From a bacterium (GTDB taxonomy: Bacteria > Zixibacteria > MSB-5A5 > GN15 > FEB-12), in assembly GCA_029211095.1 (NCBI GenBank), contig JARGFS010000012.1:1-38457 (forward strand): DNA of 38,457 nucleotides, given 5' to 3'. The notes under the pieces were generated by a model. The model worked only from the letters and a program-made list of their open reading frames with translations, ran no database searches and was not told the DNA's origin. The position numbers and the translations under genes were made by a program. Shown here piece by piece: positions 10,201-35,416 of the stretch; the first letter of the stretch is position 1, and the number at the start of each line of letters is the position of its first letter.

Positions 10201-12078
10201 TTATTTCACTTCTTCAAAGTCCGCGTCAACTGTCTCGTTGTTGTCAGAACCGGCGCTCTGCGGCGGCTCCGTCCTCGATGAGGCCTGCTGATACATTTCT
10301 GTCGAAGCGCTTTGCCAGACCTGGTTGAGAGCTTCGGTGGCCGACTCCATCTCTGCCACTGAGTCCCCTTTGACCGCCTCTTTCAGTCTTTCGACTGCTG
10401 TCTGGATACTGGTCTTGGAGTCTGCTGACAGTTTGTCGCTGAATTCCGTCAGCTGCTTTTCGGTCTGGAAGATCGTCTGATCGGCACGGTTGCGTATCTC
10501 AACGTTGCGTTTTTTCTCTTTATCTTCCGACTCATGCAGCTTGGCATCGGTTACCATCTTCTCAACCTCGGCATCGCTGAGGCCGCTTGAGGCTTCGATC
10601 CGGATATTCTGAGACTTTCCGGTCCCCATATCCTTGGCCGAGACGTTCATGATACCGTTGGCATCAAGGTCGAACGTTACCTCAATCTGCGGCAGACCGC
10701 GCGGAGCGGGTGGGATGCCGTCAAGCGCAAAGCGTCCGATAGTCTTATTGTCAATCGCCATCTCCCGTTCCCCCTGCAGGACATGAATGTCCACCTGGGG
10801 CTGGTTGTCGGCGGCGGTCGAGAATATCTCGCTCTTTCTGGTCGGGATGGTTGTGTTCCGCTCAATCAGACGGGTCGTCACGCCACCAAGCGTTTCAATC
10901 CCGAGCGACAGCGGAGTGATGTCCAGCAGGAGGACATCTTTTACATCACCAACCAGCACGCCTCCCTGGATTGCCGCGCCCAGCGCGACAACTTCGTCCG
11001 GGTTGACAGAACGGTTGGGTTCCCGTCCAAAGTACTTCTTCACCTCTTCATAAATCTTGGGCATCCGGGTCATACCACCAACCATGATGACATCATCAAC
11101 CTGGTTGATTTTCAGACCGGCGTCATCCAGCGCTTTCTGCACCGGAGTCATGCCACGCTTGATCAGATCGTCGGTCAGCTGCTCAAATTTCGCCCTGGTC
11201 AGGGAAACATTGAGATGCCGGGGTCCGGACTGATCGGCCGTTACAAACGGAAGGTTGATATTGGTCTGCATGGTCGAAGAAAGCTCGATCTTTGCTTTTT
11301 CAGCCGCTTCTTTCAGCCGCTGCAGCGCCATTGGATCGCCGGACAGATCAACTCCGTCTGACTTCTTGAATTCCTCTACCAGCCAATCGATAATCCGTTT
11401 GTCAAAGTCATCACCACCCAGGTGGGTATCACCATTCGTGGAGAGGACTTCAAAGACACCTTCCTGCAATTCCAGGATGGAGATATCAAACGTACCGCCA
11501 CCAAAATCGTACACGGCCACTTTGCCGGTCTTCTTTTTGTCAAGTCCGTAAGACAGGGCCGCCGCGGTCGGTTCGTTGATAATACGCTTAACTTCCAGAC
11601 CGGCGATCTTTCCGGCATCCTTGGTTGCCTGTCGCTGCCTGTCATTGAAGTAGGCGGGCACGGTAATGACCGCTTCCCGAATCTTGTGCCCCAGGTAGTC
11701 CTCGGCGGTCTGTTTCATCTTGCCCAGAACCATCGCCGAAATCTGTTCGGGAGCAAAGGTATCCCCGTTCATATGAATGACCGGTTCCCCACTGCTGCTT
11801 TCCGTCACTTTGTAAGGGAAGTTTTTGATTTCCTCTTTGACTTCGCTGAACTTCCGCCCGATCAAACGCTTGGCCGAAAAGACCGTGCTCATCGGGTTTG
11901 AGACCGCCTGTCGACGGGCCACCGACCCAACCAGCCGCTCTCCGGCTTTGTCGACCGCCACCACCGAGGGGGTCGTCCGGGACCCTTCCGAGTTAGTGAT
12001 AACAGTCGGCTCTTTTCCTTCGATCACGGCGACCACACTGTTGCTGGTTCCGAGATCTATTCCAATTATCTTGCTCAT
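10201..12078 (-). CDS. dnaK: Chaperone protein DnaK (Hsp70)
   Basis: DnaK is the ATP-driven cytoplasmic Hsp70 that binds unfolded polypeptides in cycles with a J protein and GrpE. The 625-residue protein has the N-terminal ATPase domain ([10 protein letters not shown] at 5-14, [35 protein letters not shown]). The substrate-binding domain includes [14 protein letters not shown] and NTTIPT, and the tail ends in the typical acidic DADFEEVK. The ATG at 12078 has a strong AAGGAGA site. It lies downstream of hsp20 with a 78-nt gap; no grpE or hrcA is present here. The GC-rich leader (12090-12140) can fold but carries no recognised CIRCE operator. Confidence 0.98.
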
Positions 12079-12156: not shown

Positions 12157-12588
12157 TTAACTGATCTTAACTTCGATCTCTTTCGGCTTCTTTTCTTCGG
12201 CTTTGGCGATCGAGACCTCCAGCAGACCGTTGTTGTAGTCCGCCTTCACCTTCTCGGCATCAATATTGTCCGGAAGATTAAAAGAGCGGCTGAACGAGCC
12301 GGTTCTAATCTCGGACCGAATGAATCCATCGCCGCTTTCCTCGCGCTCGAACTTCCTTTCGCCGGAGACGGTCAGATTATCATCCTGCACAACCACTTTG
12401 ATATTCCCCTTATCCATTCCGGGGAGTTCAAAGGTGAGGAAGAAATTGTCCGTATCTTCGGTGATATTTACCCGAGGGGCAAATCTCGGTTCGTCGGTTT
12501 CCAGGTCATGAGAATGAACCATGCAGCCGTTGAGCAAGCTGTCCATTTCCCGCCCGATTCTGTTAGTTCTGAATACTAAGTTTCTCAT
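12157..12588 (-). CDS. Small heat shock protein, Hsp20/alpha-crystallin family
   Basis: A 143-residue holdase chaperone that would bind aggregating proteins and pass them to DnaK. The alpha-crystallin domain covers ~36-125: PRVNITEDTDNFFLTFELPGM, then DNLTVSGERKFE, and the GSFSRSFNLPDNID strand with the conserved Leu-Pro. The A-x-x-x-N-G-L-L-E-V motif appears as ADYNNGLLEVSIAK, and the C-terminus KPKEIEVKIS contains an I-x-V anchor. The ATG at 12588 is preceded by AAAAGGAG. It is the first gene of the hsp20 - dnaK - J-protein cluster, and the 12589-12700 upstream region holds promoter-like and palindromic sequences. Confidence 0.95.
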   Translation of the reverse strand: MRNLVFRTNRIGREMDSLLNGCMVHSHDLETDEPRFAPRVNITEDTDNFFLTFELPGMDKGNIKVVVQDDNLTVSGERKFEREESGDGFIRSEIRTGSFSRSFNLPDNIDAEKVKADYNNGLLEVSIAKAEEKKPKEIEVKIS

Positions 12589-12816: not shown

Positions 12817-15015
12817 TTAGTGACGAGCCAGTATCTCGGAGATCGTCTTGTTTACCTGAGAATTCTTGAAAAACAGCCGCTGAGCGGCAGGAATACTCTC
12901 TCGATATCTTTTGAGTCGAGTGATAGACTGGGCATTTCCAATGGTCCCCAATGCTTTTACCACCGCCAGACGGAGGTCTTCGCGATGGACCTGACCACCG
13001 GCCAGCGAAGAAAGCTTGCCTTCATCTTCCAACAGGGAACCCAGGAAACTCAAAGCTTCCTCCCCGCCCAACTTGCCGACCGCAGTGACCGCATGGATAG
13101 CCAGCGAGGGAGTGCTACAGGCGACATCGGCCAGCAGCGGCACTGATTCTTCAGTACCGATCAGCCCAACGGTAATGACGGAACGCTCCCGAATCTCCTT
13201 AACCGGATCAGCCGCCATCAGAACGAGCAGATCGCAGGCATCTTCCCCGCCAATTTTCTCCAGCGCGGTAACGATCTCTCGCCGAACCCGAATGTCGGTA
13301 TCGTTGAAACGTAACCTAAGCGCCCAGATTGCAGCCTGATCTTTAATCAGGCCAAGCACAAAAATAGCATTCCGAATTACATACCATTTTGAATCGTGCA
13401 GTTCCAGGCGGTTGTTATCCCGCTCAAAAACGGTATCATCATTAAGAATCTGTGAACAAATCTTGAGGGCCGGATTTCCCATTTCGGACAAAGTCTTAAG
13501 GGCGTGCTGGCGGACCGTCCGCTCCGGATGCGTAATGATCTCAGTCAGGGCCAGGGCAACTTCTTCAGAACCAATATTCACAAAGATCTCTTTCAACAGG
13601 CTGGCCACGCCATAGTCCGCTCTTACCAGTTCATCAACCAGGCGTCCCAGGACTTCGCGCCGATTCAAATTGGCAAAGACCTGTTTGATAGCCATCGAGT
13701 CATAGACCGTGACCTCTTCTTCAACCTTGCGCCGCTGGGCCATAGCCGAAGTCAACGCGACCATCAGATCAAACCGGCGATGCACCAGATTGTTTTCCAG
13801 TAACCGCCAGATGAAGTCCGAGTACTCGTAAGTCTCTTTCCGATTGCTAATTTTGCGCACTACATAGTCACTGACTTTCTCAAGGACAATAATATCTGTC
13901 TCAGAATGAAGTTCGGCGATACTGCAGGTAAGCAGGGCGAGAGCCTTCTGGCGAAAGCCGGGATCGGGCGCCGAGAGCATATCGGTCAGCTGGTTCATCT
14001 TGTAAACAGCCTTCTCGCGCTGGCCGGTTTTCAACAGCCGCGTGAAGCAGTCCGCGAAATTGTTTGACTCCTCCGAAGAAACCGAGAGGTTCTCCGTATC
14101 AGAGAAGATGTCTTCAGTCAGAGCGTCCAGTTTCCGACTGGACTCTATCTGGATCATGCCGGTTGGGCGAATTAACTCTTCCACTACCTGATGGCCGAGC
14201 TCGCAATTGGCCGCACTGCTTTCAAGTTCATTGGCAATCTGCTCCCGGTCAGGATGGTATTCAATCAGCTTGCAAATCGCCTGATACACATCTATCGCAT
14301 CTTCCTTGCCTGACAATTCTGTCAGCGTACGGCAAACCAGATGAGAGCTAAAGAGCGCCACCTTTTCCGGAATTACATAGTTTACAATATCAATATGGAA
14401 ATCTATCTGGAATTCCGGCAGTGCTTCTTCGCCCCGGAGACTGATAACGGCCAGCCTCTTGAGATCATCCCCTAATTGCTGCATAGCCATCCCTCGGACG
14501 GAGAAATCTGTGACCACATCCCCCCGGTAGACCCTGTTGTTTTCAAAAAACTCGATCCCCAGCTCGCTGTTGACTTCGACCGTACTGATATTGTTCTCCG
14601 TAAGCCAGGCGGCCACCTGACTGCCGCTATCGGAGGCATTCGCTCGTTTTACGATACGGTTAACAAACTTAGAGAACTCGGTAAAAGTAACCGCATCATG
14701 CAGCAGGATGGAGTTCAGGTCCAGAATCTGCATGAACCGGATGATATCAGCCGTGAAGACAGACTCTTTCAGGATTATATTGAGAACCGACAGATCCCCT
14801 TTGTGCAGATTCAGATTGATATATTTCTTGAAGGCAAAAATCTGGCCGCAGATCAGAAAGGGTCGTTCCAGTGCCCGCTCGGCAACCTGGTGATTGCCGC
14901 CGTAGATGGACACTTTGCGGGCGGCCATGGCCAGCTCGCGAATGAAAGCATGGGCAAGTTCATTGAGGTTCGTGTTCAGTGTTGAGTTCTTGAGTGTGCC
15001 GGCCGTATGTCTCAT
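12817..15015 (-). CDS. HEAT-repeat protein
   Basis: A 732-residue, probably cytoplasmic protein with no signal peptide or membrane segment. The C-terminal ~230 residues are clear HEAT / PBS-lyase-type helical repeats (HALKTLSEMGNPAL, IWALRLRFNDTDIRVRREIVTALEKIGG, EIRERSVITVGLIGTEESVPLLADVA, LAIHAVTAVGKLGGEEALSFL, RLAVVKALGTIGNA). The N-terminal ~450 residues are alpha-helical without a recognised domain. Such repeats act as protein-binding scaffolds; no partner can be named. The ATG at 15015 has GGGGA upstream at good spacing and overlaps the PQQ-lipoprotein gene by 56 nt, so translation is probably coupled. Confidence 0.85.
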   Translation of the reverse strand: MRHTAGTLKNSTLNTNLNELAHAFIRELAMAARKVSIYGGNHQVAERALERPFLICGQIFAFKKYINLNLHKGDLSVLNIILKESVFTADIIRFMQILDLNSILLHDAVTFTEFSKFVNRIVKRANASDSGSQVAAWLTENNISTVEVNSELGIEFFENNRVYRGDVVTDFSVRGMAMQQLGDDLKRLAVISLRGEEALPEFQIDFHIDIVNYVIPEKVALFSSHLVCRTLTELSGKEDAIDVYQAICKLIEYHPDREQIANELESSAANCELGHQVVEELIRPTGMIQIESSRKLDALTEDIFSDTENLSVSSEESNNFADCFTRLLKTGQREKAVYKMNQLTDMLSAPDPGFRQKALALLTCSIAELHSETDIIVLEKVSDYVVRKISNRKETYEYSDFIWRLLENNLVHRRFDLMVALTSAMAQRRKVEEEVTVYDSMAIKQVFANLNRREVLGRLVDELVRADYGVASLLKEIFVNIGSEEVALALTEIITHPERTVRQHALKTLSEMGNPALKICSQILNDDTVFERDNNRLELHDSKWYVIRNAIFVLGLIKDQAAIWALRLRFNDTDIRVRREIVTALEKIGGEDACDLLVLMAADPVKEIRERSVITVGLIGTEESVPLLADVACSTPSLAIHAVTAVGKLGGEEALSFLGSLLEDEGKLSSLAGGQVHREDLRLAVVKALGTIGNAQSITRLKRYRESIPAAQRLFFKNSQVNKTISEILARH

Positions 15016-16144
15016 TTTGTTCCCCGAAACAGATTATCAGTCCTTTGTCTGTAGCCAGGTATACTCTGCTTCCGTCACTAACCGGCGCAAAGGAGATAGA
15101 ACCTTCGAGCTCTCGTGACTCAATGAGAATGCCGTCAGCGGCGCGCAGCGTGTACAACCGGCCCAGTTGGGTACCGACCACCACAACATCACCAACCACG
15201 ATTGGCGATACGACAATAATCTCCCCGGAATCAAATGTCCACAACGGGCTGCCATCAGAAACATCCAGAGCGGTCAACCCTCGTCCACCGTTGGACACAA
15301 ACAGCCGACCATCGGCCAGAGCCGGTGGCGACCAGATTGGTCCGCCGACAAGGGCGCTCCAGATTTTTTCGCCCGTCTGCAGAGACACAGCGTGAACGCT
15401 GCCGGACAAATCTGCCAGATAAATTTCTTCCGCCGCTACTGCCGACGAAACCAAAGGTGCTCCGAGTTCTACGGCAAAAATGTCCGCTCCGTCTGCAATC
15501 GAAATCGCATACAGAGTTCCGTCATCCGCCGGTTGAATGATCTTCTCACCATCAGAAACCGGTGGCGCGGTAAGACGCCCGGGGAATTCATGACTCCACA
15601 GAGTTTTTCCGTCGGCCGTATCAACAGCCGACAATAATCCACTGGTAGAGCCAATAATCAGGCGGTCGTCTATAATTATCGACCCGCCCAGGGCATCTCT
15701 TAACGGCTGCTTCCAGCGTCGACCTCCCGAAGTCAACCCAAAACAATTCAGACGGTTACGAGGTGGCCCCGTGGCCACAAAACCGGCTCCGCCGACCACC
15801 AAAAAACCGGTCTGAGGAACTCCCTTAATCTTGATCCGTCCTTCGTAGGAGCCGGTCTCGGCATCATAGAACCGAATTTTTCGCTTGGTTCCGGGATAGA
15901 CCAGGTAGCCGTTCTGAAGCGTCAGCGGTCCGCCCGGCTTGTCATTTGATTTATTCTCCCAGATAATATCCAACTTGCCCGAGTAGTTTGACTGCACCGC
16001 TCCGCTGCCCTGCAGGTCCTGCCGGGCAAATGGCCAGCCAGACTCCACTTTCAGGGAGCGCTCCGGCATCTTGAAATTCGGACTGCAACCGGACAGAACG
16101 ACCACCAGAAGAATTGGCGACAAAAATCTAGCCATGCTAGTCAT
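14960..16144 (-). CDS. BamB-like PQQ-propeller lipoprotein
   Basis: A lipoprotein with a signal peptide ending in a lipobox (VVLSGC, Cys20 from the chosen start). A seven- or eight-bladed quinoprotein-type beta-propeller follows, shown by repeated blade signatures such as LLSAVDTADGKTLWSHEF, VHAVSLQTGEKIWSALVG, LTALDVSDGSPLWTFDSG and LYTLRAADGILIESREL. BamB, the lipoprotein scaffold of the outer-membrane assembly machine, has this fold and location; whether this protein works in the BAM complex is inference. The start ATG at 16144 overlaps the stop of the upstream gene as TGATG, with GGTGG as ribosome-binding site. A longer GTG start at 16156 is possible. It lies between the protease-barrel gene and the HEAT gene. 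Confidence 0.88.
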   Translation of the reverse strand: MTSMARFLSPILLVVVLSGCSPNFKMPERSLKVESGWPFARQDLQGSGAVQSNYSGKLDIIWENKSNDKPGGPLTLQNGYLVYPGTKRKIRFYDAETGSYEGRIKIKGVPQTGFLVVGGAGFVATGPPRNRLNCFGLTSGGRRWKQPLRDALGGSIIIDDRLIIGSTSGLLSAVDTADGKTLWSHEFPGRLTAPPVSDGEKIIQPADDGTLYAISIADGADIFAVELGAPLVSSAVAAEEIYLADLSGSVHAVSLQTGEKIWSALVGGPIWSPPALADGRLFVSNGGRGLTALDVSDGSPLWTFDSGEIIVVSPIVVGDVVVVGTQLGRLYTLRAADGILIESRELEGSISFAPVSDGSRVYLATDKGLIICFGEQNETYGRHTQELNTEHEPQ

Positions 16145-18975
16145 CAGAAATTCCACCCAAAGAAAAAGTCAAAGTCGGTTCGGGGGCTGATCGTCTCAAA
16201 ATCTGTCGTTCGGCTGAAATCGAAGCGGAAAACAACCACCTGGGCCAGGCCAACCCTGATACCGGTCCCGAATGAGCCCAGCAGCTCGTCAAACTCATCA
16301 TCCCAGGCCGAGCCAACATCAAAAAAGAAAGCTCCCCGGATTCCTCGGAAGCCAAGACCGCCTATTGGGAAACCGACAAACAGGTTATCGATCAGCGGAA
16401 AGCGAAGTTCATGCGAAGCAAACAGGATGTTCCGATTGTAAAATGCCCGTCGGTCATATCCCCGGAATGACCAGCTGCCGCCAAAGTATATCCGTTGTGG
16501 TTCCACCCCGCTGGAGGAATAGGCAAACAGCCGACTGGCAAAGGCAGAATACATTCCCAGTCGGTAATAATGTCGGACATCGGCTACCGCCACCCGGTTG
16601 AATGAGTTGGCCACATTGTCAGCGTCACCGGCAACAGTATATCCGACCGAGAAATTGTACCTTCTCCCCTCAATCGGCCCGCTATAGTCCCAGAGGCTGT
16701 TATCATACACCAAGCTCACAAGATTGGTCAGGAGGAACTTCTCTCGCTTGGTCCGCAGCAGGACTCTGTCCTTTTTGGAGTAACGCCCTACCACGGTCAA
16801 GTCTATTCGGTGGAATTTTGAAAAGGGGTAGCTCAGCAAACCGATTCCCCCGGCCTGACGCTCCGAATAGAAACCATCGAAATCATTGTGATACTCATCG
16901 ACCAGATGAAAAGCGCCAATCCCCCAGTTGATTCTATTCTCCCGGTTTATGAACGTGACGCCAAAATTAAATGACTCCAAAAAGTCATCCCGCGTCTGGG
17001 CCGTATTGGTCACCAAAAAATAGAAGGTGCGATTCCCCAGCACGTCGGAGACCGCCGCCTGCACTCCGCCGAGCGATCCGTACACCGGATCATATCCAAC
17101 TGCCGACTGGGCAATATCAAGAGAGTAGTCAGAGTTATATTTGATTGAAGCGGAACTGAATTTTTCATCGATCTGTTTCGGCAGCCAGTGCGATCCATCC
17201 GCTACCTCCGGCTGTTCAAATGGCTCCGCCTCTTCCGGCACGTCCATCTCATATATCTGGTAGCGCATCCCTTCATAACCGGTATACAACAGACGCGATC
17301 CATCACTGGAAAGACGCGGATTGAGAGCGGCGGTAGCGAAAGTTGACTGGCGGCTCAGTTCACCATTCTTGTTGAGCAAAAAGAGATTGTAACTTCCCCC
17401 CCGGTCTGAACTGAAATAGATCCCGTCCGGTCCCACTTCGGGAGAATGATCATCATAATCACCAAAAGTCAGCTGTGTCAGAAGCCCGGACGCCAGGTGA
17501 AGCCGATAGATATTGCTGGCCCCCTTCTTACCAAAAGCACAGCGATCGGACACAAACAGCAAATCCTTTCCATCTTCGGAGAAGACCGGATCGACATCAT
17601 AATAAATATCATTCGTGACCGTCTGATAAGTTCCATCCACAATATTTAGAATGTAGAGATCGGTGAAACCGCTTTTCTTAACGCCTGAGAAAACAACCTG
17701 TCGGCCATCGGGCGAAAAGCGCGGGGACCGCGCAGCTACCAGATTTTTGAATTCAAATCGCTCCGTCACCTTTTCCCGGTTCAAATTGTAGATATAAATT
17801 ACATCTGACTCTTTGGACTTGGACGAAAAGACTATCATCCCGCTGTCATTGGCATCAATCCCCGAACGAAGCAGATACAGCGATTCAAAGTCACTCGACC
17901 GCTCCCCTTTCAACAGGATACGCGGCTTCTCACTCTCGTCGACCGGGACGATATATATCCCGGAGTAGCCCAGAACATTCGCCTTGTAGACAATCCAGTC
18001 CTGCACCCCATCGCCGTCATCCCAATGGATTGGCACACCCCGGACAGCATAACCATCCGAAGTTATCCTCTCCGATCCCATCCGCGGCAGATCCGAGTCA
18101 GCCAGCGTAGGGTAATATTTTTTCTTGAGATAATATTCCCACTTCCGTGATAACTCTTTGACCGAATCCCCAAGCGTAATCTTGATGAGTGATTCAAACC
18201 GCTTCCCTTTCGGCCAGTTCTCAAGCAGACGGATAATTTTATCCGGGCCATAAGTAGAGTCAATAAAGTGGCACAATGATTCGCCCAGTTTATACATGAA
18301 ATAGGTGCCCCGAATCCGGAACATGTTTTCGATATTGAAAAACCGATTGGTCAGAATCATGTCCTTGACCACCATGTCCGCTTCTACATCCCAATCCTTG
18401 GACCAGTACTCAGCCAATCCTTCGGTAAACCAAAGCGGCGGAAGATAATTGCGGGAACGGCGGTGTCGATCTGAGACTACCCGAAGTTTAGAGAGGGTGA
18501 AGACATGTACAATCTCGTGCCATATCACATGATTGAAATCATGGTATGAGCCATGAAAAGGAACCACAACGCGCCCCTTGAGGAACTCTGTAAATCCGGC
18601 CACTGACTCCGGAAGCATACCGGCGATAATGTTGGTCTGGGAGAAATAGCCGGGCGAAGAATAGAAAACAAGCGGGACCTTTTTGCTCAGTTCATGTTTG
18701 AATTTGACGGCTAAGTCTTCGTATGCGGCTTCCGCCGCCTCAGCCCCAATCCGAGCTATTTCGGCCTCTTCCTGATAAAAATAAATCCGGAAATGCTCCG
18801 TCTCCATCACCTGCCAGTCAAAGTCCGTATATTGGACTTTGTTTTTGCCAAAGTAAAACTGGGCAGAGGTGGGGGTTGCGATCAGCAGAAACAGACCAAA
18901 AAAGAGCAACCAGCCAGATATCGTTTTAGTTTTATTATCGAAGTGTTGCTTCTCTTTGGCTCGCTGCTTAGTCAT
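16144..18975 (-). CDS. HExxH protease / TolB-type propeller / Omp85-like barrel fusion protein
   Basis: A 943-residue outer-membrane protein with three parts. After a signal peptide (cleavage near TSAQ, residue 39), residues ~50-300 form a peptidase_MA-like domain with HEIVH at 153-157 and WFTEGLAEY at 182-190, the HExxH...E arrangement of gluzincin zinc proteases. Residues ~310-640 are PD40/TolB-like propeller blades (RSPRFSPDGRQVVFSG, DVDPVFSEDGKDLLFVSDR, HSPEVGPDGIYFSSDRGG). Residues ~660-943 resemble the C-terminal barrel of the Omp85/D15 family (YFGGSWSFRGYD, LFASHELRFPL, GAFFFDVGSAWDD), ending in FGWNF with a terminal Phe typical of barrels. The protease and propeller would face the periplasm. 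It is first in an overlapping operon with the PQQ lipoprotein and HEAT protein. Substrates are unknown. Confidence 0.88.
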   Translation of the reverse strand: MTKQRAKEKQHFDNKTKTISGWLLFFGLFLLIATPTSAQFYFGKNKVQYTDFDWQVMETEHFRIYFYQEEAEIARIGAEAAEAAYEDLAVKFKHELSKKVPLVFYSSPGYFSQTNIIAGMLPESVAGFTEFLKGRVVVPFHGSYHDFNHVIWHEIVHVFTLSKLRVVSDRHRRSRNYLPPLWFTEGLAEYWSKDWDVEADMVVKDMILTNRFFNIENMFRIRGTYFMYKLGESLCHFIDSTYGPDKIIRLLENWPKGKRFESLIKITLGDSVKELSRKWEYYLKKKYYPTLADSDLPRMGSERITSDGYAVRGVPIHWDDGDGVQDWIVYKANVLGYSGIYIVPVDESEKPRILLKGERSSDFESLYLLRSGIDANDSGMIVFSSKSKESDVIYIYNLNREKVTERFEFKNLVAARSPRFSPDGRQVVFSGVKKSGFTDLYILNIVDGTYQTVTNDIYYDVDPVFSEDGKDLLFVSDRCAFGKKGASNIYRLHLASGLLTQLTFGDYDDHSPEVGPDGIYFSSDRGGSYNLFLLNKNGELSRQSTFATAALNPRLSSDGSRLLYTGYEGMRYQIYEMDVPEEAEPFEQPEVADGSHWLPKQIDEKFSSASIKYNSDYSLDIAQSAVGYDPVYGSLGGVQAAVSDVLGNRTFYFLVTNTAQTRDDFLESFNFGVTFINRENRINWGIGAFHLVDEYHNDFDGFYSERQAGGIGLLSYPFSKFHRIDLTVVGRYSKKDRVLLRTKREKFLLTNLVSLVYDNSLWDYSGPIEGRRYNFSVGYTVAGDADNVANSFNRVAVADVRHYYRLGMYSAFASRLFAYSSSGVEPQRIYFGGSWSFRGYDRRAFYNRNILFASHELRFPLIDNLFVGFPIGGLGFRGIRGAFFFDVGSAWDDEFDELLGSFGTGIRVGLAQVVVFRFDFSRTTDFETISPRTDFDFFFGWNF

Positions 18976-20114: not shown

Positions 20115-21686
20115 TTAGTTTTCCGGTCGGACAATCCGTTCGGCTGCGGCGGCCAGATCATCCACCACCAACCGGTCAATTAGCTCTGGTGGCAGCCGTT
20201 TCATCTGGTCCAGTCCATGTCCGGTCCGAACCAACAGCGGTCTTCCGCCCATGGCCAGGGCCAGATTGCAATCATCCATCTTGTCGCCAATCACATATGA
20301 GCTTCTCAAGTCCAGCCGAAGTTGTCGGGCAGCCGTCTCCACCATCCCGACCGAAGGCTTCCGGCAGTCACAGCGCCTGGCATACTCAGGCTGATTGCCA
20401 TCCGGATAGTGCGGGCAAAAGTATAAACCATCAACACTCACTCCCGCCTGCTGCAGGATTTCAAGCAGCCTCGCATTGACTCTTTCGGCCTGACTGACAT
20501 CAAAATATCCTCGGGCCACGCCGGACTGATTGGAGACAATGACTATTTTGCAGCCTGCGGCACTCAGCTTCTTTAGTCCTTCAACCGAGCCCGGCAAAAC
20601 TTCCACCTGCTCCGGATCAGACAGGAAATGCTTCTCGGCGATAATAGTCCCGTCCCGGTCGACAAATACAGCCGGTCGCAAATCGCCAGCCGTTTCCAGG
20701 GTCTGATCAATGGCGGCCAGAACATCAGGCGGCAGAATCCGGGTAAAACAGAACTGTTCCTCACGATAGCAGCCGGAAGAACCGTGGAGCGAACAGGGAC
20801 GGCACTCCTCATCGGTCTCCACCATCCGATCAAACAGTCCTCGCGGAGCAAAGCCGAGTGATGAGTGGGTCGGACCAAACAGAACCACCGCCGGCGTTCC
20901 CAGCCCGGAGGAGAGATGAGCAACCCCGGAATCATTTGATATTGTAATGCTGGCTTGGGAAATCATGGTGGCCAACTCCGCCAGCGGCCGTCCGATCATC
21001 TGTTTTCCCGGCAGGCTGGACTTCACCGGGGCGAGAATATGCTCTTCGTCATCGGCCAGCACCCAGACGATCTCAACATTTCCTGTCTGATCAAGCAGAT
21101 GAGCGAGTTCGGCGAACTTTGCTATCGGCCAACGTTTTGGGCCGTGGGCTGCGCCCGGGGCAACCAGAACCCGCACCGTATCCGAATCCTCTTCTGTCCA
21201 AACGGTCTCAATCTTCGCTCTCGAGGGGGATAACTGCGGACGAATGCACGGAGTTATCATCCCGGCTTCAGATAACGCCGAATTGTAAGCATCAATCGTA
21301 TGCGCTACCGCGAGAGCGCTCCCGCCCTCTCTTACAACCGCCTCCCGCTCCCGCCTTCGCTTGGGATACAGGAGCTTCTGCGAAGCTGTGATCAGTTTGC
21401 CCACTAAGCGGCTCCTGAAATTACCGTGCAGATCGATCAGAAGATCAATCCGCTTCCTTTCCAGTGCGGCAACTATTCCGGCAAGCTCTCTTATCGAAGC
21501 AACATCAGGGATAGTGATGACTTCATCCACGCCGTGCATCATTTCCACCACGGGCGCAAACCGCTCTTTGGTAAGAAACAGTATTCGGCTTCCGGGGTAG
21601 TTGATCCGCAGGTTGACGACGGCAGCCGAAGTCAGCGCAACATCGCCCAGTGAGCTAAACCTGATGAGTAAAATATTCTGGCGCAT
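20115..21686 (-). CDS. Fusion: GT9 heptosyltransferase + D-glycero-D-manno-heptose-1,7-bisphosphate phosphatase
   Basis: A 523-residue fusion of two LPS-heptose enzymes. Residues 1-~330 are a glycosyltransferase family 9 domain (LIRFSSLGDVALTSAAV at 7-23, APGAAHGPKRWP near 176, SNDSGVAHLSSGLGTP at 250-265), which transfers heptose from ADP-heptose to LPS core. Residues ~337-520 are a HAD phosphatase of the GmhB type: FVDRDGT with D343 and D345, SNQSGVARGYF at 385-395, the zinc loop C424-H426-C439-C441, and IGDKMDDC at 466-473. GmhB removes the C7 phosphate on the path to ADP-heptose. The ATG follows the uppP stop with no gap. No frameshift was seen at the junction, so the fusion appears genuine. 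Confidence 0.93.
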   Translation of the reverse strand: MRQNILLIRFSSLGDVALTSAAVVNLRINYPGSRILFLTKERFAPVVEMMHGVDEVITIPDVASIRELAGIVAALERKRIDLLIDLHGNFRSRLVGKLITASQKLLYPKRRREREAVVREGGSALAVAHTIDAYNSALSEAGMITPCIRPQLSPSRAKIETVWTEEDSDTVRVLVAPGAAHGPKRWPIAKFAELAHLLDQTGNVEIVWVLADDEEHILAPVKSSLPGKQMIGRPLAELATMISQASITISNDSGVAHLSSGLGTPAVVLFGPTHSSLGFAPRGLFDRMVETDEECRPCSLHGSSGCYREEQFCFTRILPPDVLAAIDQTLETAGDLRPAVFVDRDGTIIAEKHFLSDPEQVEVLPGSVEGLKKLSAAGCKIVIVSNQSGVARGYFDVSQAERVNARLLEILQQAGVSVDGLYFCPHYPDGNQPEYARRCDCRKPSVGMVETAARQLRLDLRSSYVIGDKMDDCNLALAMGGRPLLVRTGHGLDQMKRLPPELIDRLVVDDLAAAAERIVRPEN

Positions 21687-34597: not shown

Positions 34598-35416
34598 TCA
34601 GGGAAGCCGTTGCTTCATCTGTCCGAAACGGCTTTCACCGAGAGTAAGTCCCGAGGGCAACGGTGAAACAGCCTGAATCCCCTTCTGCGCGTTGGAAATC
34701 CGTTCCTGAGTATCGGGATGACTGGAAGCGAGTTTCTCAAATACATTTGAGGCAGACCCGCCCTTCTCAGCCAGAATGTCAAACATAGTTACCATCGCGT
34801 TCGGATCATATCCCGCTTTTATCATATAGTGCATACCGAATTCATCCGCCTCCCGTTCGTTGTTGCGGGAGTAATTCGGGAAGAGAAGCAGCCCCATCCC
34901 GACGTTGACGGCGGTCGCCAGCACCGCACCGGACTCAGAATCGCCGGCAATCAGTTCGAGTGCTGCCGCCACGCCGAGCGCTGTTTGAAGTCGCCGGATT
35001 CCATGCCGTCCCACAACGTGGGATATCTCATGAGCCACCACCGCAGCCAGTTCAGCTTCATTATGCATCTCTTTAATCAGCCCGGTATAAAAATAGATAT
35101 AACCGCCCGGGGCGGCAAAAGCGTTAAGCTGGTCAGACTCGATAACGGTAAAATGATACTCTATATCCTGCCGATCACAGACCGCTACAATCTTCTGTCC
35201 GATTTCGTTCAGGTACATTTGCCATTCCGAATCGGCAAGTTCCTTTTCGGTCTGCGCTACCTGCTCAGCCATCCCGGCCCCAATGGCTACTTCCTGGCTG
35301 GTTGGGATTATTATTAAAGACTGTTTCCCACCCGGTCCGGTGGTGGCACAGGAGAACAGGCCCAGACAGAGTAGAAAGACTATTCCCGTGTTTAGAGCGC
35401 GCTTAAGGTGTGACAT
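34598..35416 (-). CDS. M48-family zinc metalloprotease lipoprotein
   Basis: A 272-residue periplasmic peptidase of the BepA/LoiP/Oma1-like M48 group, which degrades misfolded outer-membrane proteins in characterised species. The signal peptide ends in a lipobox (LFSC, Cys23). The zinc motif HEISH is at 129-133, and the third-ligand motif ExxxD is E187-D191 (EREAD). FPNYSRNNEREADEFG matches the family exactly. A QSLIIIPTSQEVAIG stretch follows the Cys, as usual in these lipoproteins. The ATG at 35416 has GAGGAA upstream and lies 11 nt after the DUF4870-like gene. It is last in the TPR - GH57 - DUF4870 - M48 operon. Confidence 0.94.
   Translation of the reverse strand: MSHLKRALNTGIVFLLCLGLFSCATTGPGGKQSLIIIPTSQEVAIGAGMAEQVAQTEKELADSEWQMYLNEIGQKIVAVCDRQDIEYHFTVIESDQLNAFAAPGGYIYFYTGLIKEMHNEAELAAVVAHEISHVVGRHGIRRLQTALGVAAALELIAGDSESGAVLATAVNVGMGLLLFPNYSRNNEREADEFGMHYMIKAGYDPNAMVTMFDILAEKGGSASNVFEKLASSHPDTQERISNAQKGIQAVSPLPSGLTLGESRFGQMKQRLP

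Follow-up and report, generated by a model that had tools for sequence, protein, structure and literature searches.

A conserved gene pair of Zixiibacteriota and Bacteroidota encodes a predicted protease-propeller-Omp85 barrel protein and a BamB-like lipoprotein

Analysis of a 38,457-nucleotide stretch of DNA (hereafter, the window) from a genome of Candidatus Zixiibacteriota assembled in 241 contigs identified two tightly linked genes, one for a 943-amino acid protein in which a zinc protease-like domain and a TolB-type propeller are joined to an Omp85-type barrel, and the other for a BamB-like lipoprotein with PQQ repeats. This pair, and not the three-gene operon with a HEAT-repeat protein that was proposed in the initial annotation of this DNA, is the conserved unit, and given that the two genes are kept together across two phyla, they probably represent a device for outer-membrane quality control or assembly that has not been described before. 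The domain order, the invariant zinc motif, the Omp85 motifs, the 16 predicted strands and the conserved coupling of the pair are directly supported by the data. As for the function, the interpretation that we favor, with a probability of roughly 0.5, is an outer-membrane-anchored periplasmic protease module that acts, with its lipoprotein partner, on outer-membrane clients.

The 943-residue protein is encoded on the minus strand (16144..18975), and the domain composition originally read from its sequence, namely, a HExxH...E protease, a TolB-type propeller and an Omp85-like barrel, is borne out by profile searches, AlphaFold2 modeling and Foldseek comparison. The signal peptide (residues 1-38) ends just before the nearly invariant Q39, the first residue of the mature protein. 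A helical, gluzincin-type domain (residues about 53-291) contains the motifs HEIVH and WFTEGLAEY, with H153-E154-x-x-H157 and E185 as the zinc site; it is followed by the TolB-type propeller (residues about 300-590), a short linker (~25 residues in the AlphaFold2 model) and the 16-strand Omp85 barrel (residues 613-943). The protease-like domain is thus physically fused to the barrel, in line with the earlier suggestion that the protease is tethered to a barrel of its own. The propeller is readily recognized by PD40 (PF07676; E 8e-18), which is present in all 39 aligned relatives (Pfam, hmmscan); it also matches TolB (TIGR02800) with an E-value of 3e-34, but at 118.6 bits this score is far below the curated cut-off of 343, and TolB proper was rejected. 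Peptidase_MA_2 (PF13485) scores 28 bits, slightly under its cut-off of 32, and is found at E<=0.01 in 37 of the 39 relatives. For the barrel, Omp85 (PF01103) reaches 29.1 bits against a cut-off of 24 in the six-frame search, and hmmscan detects it in only one of the 39 members, so that the Pfam evidence for the barrel, taken alone, is weak.

Stronger evidence is provided by the structural model and by profile and fold comparisons. The model (mean pLDDT 80, pTM 0.73) predicts exactly 16 barrel strands (residues 617-941), of which strands 11 and 12 are connected by the loop that contains FRGY, the Omp85 RGY/F motif; confidence is low at residues 111-126 and 620-636, the latter near the first barrel strand. 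The barrel that had been placed at residues 660-943 is accordingly present in the model, although its predicted start is at about 613-617. In profile comparisons, the protein matches BamA and TamA from the same genome (E 1.4e-6 in each case), the TamA match extending across GGSxSxRG, and Foldseek retrieves TolB along with the barrels of BamA and TamA, including the BamA barrel of D. radiodurans (TMt 0.64). Proteins of the Omp85 superfamily typically, albeit not universally, possess at least one POTRA domain; no POTRA family was matched by hmmscan in any of the 39 members.

The second gene of the pair (14960..16144, minus strand) encodes a 394-residue PQQ-repeat protein (PQQ_2/BamB match, 5e-37) with the lipobox LSGC, the cysteine of which (C20) is invariant in the lipoprotein alignment. 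BamB proper was rejected, the score against TIGR03300 (134 bits) being far under the curated cut-off (285). No other stand-alone PQQ_2 protein was found in the source genome. The two genes overlap in a TGATG, a signature of translational coupling (16142..16146, minus strand), where the sequence reads TTC TGA TGA and the TGA stop of the first gene (16146-16144) shares the A at position 16144 with the ATG of the second one (16144-16142), as initially annotated. The PQQ lipoprotein gene is located downstream in 97 of the 98 loci of the short (S) type, to which this protein belongs, and the barrel and lipoprotein genes overlap by 1 or 4 nucleotides in 77 of the 98. The reading frames, motifs and overlaps are not fortuitous, as they are found again in about 100 related loci. 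A single S-type locus with downstream sequence (L107) lacks the lipoprotein gene; there, from translation only, a reading frame for a Crp/Fnr-like regulator takes its place.

A profile search detected the protein family in 130 of the 132 genomes of Ca. Zixiibacteriota, including all 78 of good quality, and in 88 of the 148 sampled genomes of Bacteroidota, the phylum that includes the Rhodothermales record L046; the 130/132 and 88/148 counts include a longer, L-type paralog. This paralog (about 1,030-1,190 amino acids) is found in the same genomes and shows the same domain order and zinc motif as the S type; it differs in the longer linker that precedes the barrel and forms its own clade that spans both phyla. 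In the phylogenetic tree, which took in only two Bacteroidota S sequences, the two types separate with full support, and the S and L sides each include both phyla, with two very divergent L sequences standing apart. This topology suggests that the duplication probably predates the split between Zixiibacteriota and Bacteroidota; an old transfer could also account for the distribution. None of the 21 L-type loci with flanks of about 1 kb or more contains a PQQ gene next to the paralog, which indicates that the pairing is specific to the S type. The source genome itself encodes a 1131-residue L-type paralog (L170:1192-4587), without a PQQ partner.

Immediately downstream of the pair in the window is the gene for a 732-residue HEAT-repeat protein (12817..15015, minus strand; HEAT_2 match, 5e-30). 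The 56-nucleotide overlap with the lipoprotein gene (14960..15015, minus strand), which ends at 14960, and the lack of an export signal in the HEAT protein were both correctly noted at the outset. The AlphaFold model consists of a confident alpha-solenoid and an unclassified N-terminal alpha/beta domain, and a Foldseek search with it retrieved only generic repeat proteins and nothing functional; the first 230 residues (14326-15015) contain an invariant KxxxYxxxH motif and match no Pfam family. In most of the order, the HEAT gene comes after the lipoprotein gene and overlaps it, with overlaps of 26-56 nucleotides, or direct abutment, recurring, and this arrangement is what speaks for a self-contained three-gene outer-membrane module with HEAT as the obligatory scaffold. 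That model, however, is largely refuted by the locus survey: the HEAT gene is downstream of the pair in 39 of the 59 Zixiibacteriota loci, is missing from this position in the other 20, about one-third (sometimes being located upstream instead), and is found there in none of the 20 Bacteroidota loci. Furthermore, the HEAT protein has no export signal, and its gene is a member of a longer block. We therefore rejected an essential role of HEAT in such a module as highly improbable; of the three-gene linkage, the part that holds in relatives is the tight association of the first two genes across two phyla, whereas HEAT, partly unlinked, is a Zixiibacteriota-only accessory. Among class-level relatives, three loci (L131, L133 and L146) contain HEAT-family genes on both sides of the protease-barrel gene.

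The block that is kept within the order consists of genes for omp, bacA, heptosyltransferase-GmhB, radical SAM, protease-barrel, PQQ lipoprotein, HEAT, hsp20, dnaK and dnaJ. In the window, all on the minus strand, the AmmeMemoRadiSam radical SAM gene (TIGR04337; 19090..20088) is directly upstream of the pair, as in 24 of 49 Zixiibacteriota loci, and the heptosyltransferase (GT9)-GmhB-like phosphatase fusion (20115..21686) is an upstream neighbor in 38 of 49 loci; the downstream neighbors are the small heat-shock gene hsp20 (12157..12588; 38 of 46 Zixiibacteriota loci) and dnaK (10201..12078; 25 of 46). The fused gene, kept across the order, belongs to ADP-heptose/LPS-core synthesis, its GmhB-like part being a heptose-bisphosphate phosphatase. 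Scans for consensus promoters and terminators yielded about twice the shuffled expectation and no informative sites. The HEAT protein fits a cytoplasmic neighbor under shared expression: it would be a lineage-specific protein expressed jointly with genes for the envelope and for proteostasis (hsp20, dnaK, dnaJ) and not a structural part of the envelope device.

We aligned 100 unique homologs of the barrel protein from Zixiibacteriota and Bacteroidota. The zinc-site residues H153, E154, H157 and E185, together with W182, G186 and Y228 of the protease-like domain, are identical in all 100 sequences, and the same holds for R838, G839, R917, D919 and F943 of the Omp85 motifs; within the barrel, conservation is high in L6 and the last strands. 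The propeller and the linker are much less conserved than the zinc site and the Omp85 signature, the propeller, with a mean column conservation of 0.51, being the least conserved domain. The complete identity of the zinc site against this background implies that it is under selection, and the alignment thus points to strong selection on both the protease site and the Omp85 signature of the barrel. This pattern of conservation suggests that the gluzincin domain is an active enzyme. The barrel could be an anchor only; however, with five invariant motif residues, it looks like more than a generic one.

The main rival to the protease-module reading is an insertase or translocon, that is, a WD40-Omp85 assembly factor in which an active Omp85 barrel inserts or exports particular proteins, the propeller and the lipoprotein receive the client, and the protease processes it in passing. 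The invariance of the Omp85 motifs, the conservation of L6 and the last strands, and the BamB-like partner all argue in this direction. BamA-BamB, similarly, combines an Omp85 barrel with a PQQ-propeller lipoprotein; BamA has POTRA domains and no protease. In addition to the lack of POTRA in all 39 members, this scenario is weakened by the presence of other machinery in the source genome, where BamA with POTRA domains, TamA-TamB and other Omp85 proteins are encoded, so that the 943-residue protein is an extra Omp85 and not the essential BamA. Nor was a dedicated client gene seen to adjoin the pair in both phyla, and altogether we consider an insertase or translocon to be rather unlikely. Among the Omp85 proteins in which the source genome is rich is a patatin-POTRA-Omp85, PlpD-like protein (L068:2366-5185).

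The closest published counterpart is the WD40-Omp85 subfamily of Heinz and Lithgow (2014, PMC4104836), in which a TolB-like propeller precedes the Omp85 barrel, without POTRA, as in the 943-residue protein; the authors liken it to a BamA-BamB fusion, which also favors an insertase, and report no function for it in the main text. Unlike the protein described here, neither an HExxH domain nor a coupled lipoprotein gene is mentioned in that main text. The 943-residue protein may well belong to the same lineage, and the published set may already include proteins of this family with the protease unannotated. The 'Metallo' subfamily of the same study was rejected as a counterpart because it carries PF00149, a domain different from gluzincin. 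Searches of the open-license literature that paired Omp85 with peptidase-MA, PD40 or Zixibacteria returned no description of this architecture or of the lipoprotein partner.

The fusion of an enzyme domain with an Omp85 barrel, along with the large N-terminal region, is also compatible with a secreted surface protease, in which the barrel would carry its own protease-propeller portion to the outside of the cell by type Vd secretion, a route formerly suggested for PlpD. However, TolB-like propellers are periplasmic, the lipoprotein partner is strictly conserved, and the occurrence of the family in every good-quality genome of the phylum points to a housekeeping function. Moreover, PlpD (patatin-Omp85), which shares the enzyme-barrel fusion with the 943-residue protein and is the nearest precedent for its topology, keeps the N-terminal enzyme domain in the periplasm (PMC11116518). 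Secretion to the surface therefore seems improbable, and the periplasmic protease reading is favored. PlpD, unlike the 943-residue protein, is a phospholipase with one POTRA domain and without a propeller. Because TolB is the best match of the propeller in both fold and sequence, and no TolB above the curated cut-off was found in the source genome, we also considered a Tol-Pal-like envelope tether, whereby the propeller would bind Pal or peptidoglycan-linked lipoproteins, the barrel would anchor the link, and the protease would trim it. The propeller, however, is the least conserved domain, and the genome contains other TolB-like propeller ORFs, which makes this option doubtful as well.

Under the favored periplasmic protease reading, the signal peptide would export the 943-residue protein, and the C-terminal, 16-strand barrel would be inserted into the outer membrane, with the gluzincin domain and the propeller, which take the place of POTRA domains, reaching into the periplasm. 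The co-translated lipoprotein, lipid-tethered to the outer membrane, would bind the periplasmic part of the barrel protein, and the pair would receive its clients, outer-membrane proteins or lipoproteins that are either stalled or just arriving, for cleavage, maturation or clearance; we infer the catalysis, the periplasmic side, the complex formation and the type of client. Such a mode of action would resemble that of BepA, a periplasmic, BAM-associated M48 metalloprotease with which the 943-residue protein would share a role in outer-membrane protein quality control, except that here the protease would be built into an Omp85 barrel that might, in addition, be capable of client insertion or release. 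BepA belongs to a peptidase family other than that of the gluzincin domain, has TPR instead of a propeller, and lacks a barrel. Several observations weigh against the favored reading. BamB binds BamA via POTRA domains, and with none found here the lipoprotein would need a new mode of binding; the gluzincin match is under the Pfam cut-off in this member, and the structural model is of low confidence close to the first barrel strand. The source genome also yields three strong M48 matches, so that the function of BepA may be performed by other proteins. One of the three is an M48-family metalloprotease within the window (34598-35416).

More tentatively, the pair might be a second, POTRA-less Omp85 machine that predates the divergence of Zixiibacteriota and Bacteroidota and, with its built-in zinc protease and dedicated BamB-like lipoprotein, combines, within a single polypeptide, the insertion or release of barrels and quality control by proteolysis. 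WD40-Omp85 proteins have been known since 2014, and neither a function nor a partner was found for them in the searchable literature; the present survey shows that a WD40-Omp85-like protein has a zinc site that is invariant and amenable to testing, and a partner lipoprotein to which it is strictly linked. Because some members of the phyla that carry the pair can be cultured, its role is open to direct testing, with implications for outer-membrane quality control outside Proteobacteria.
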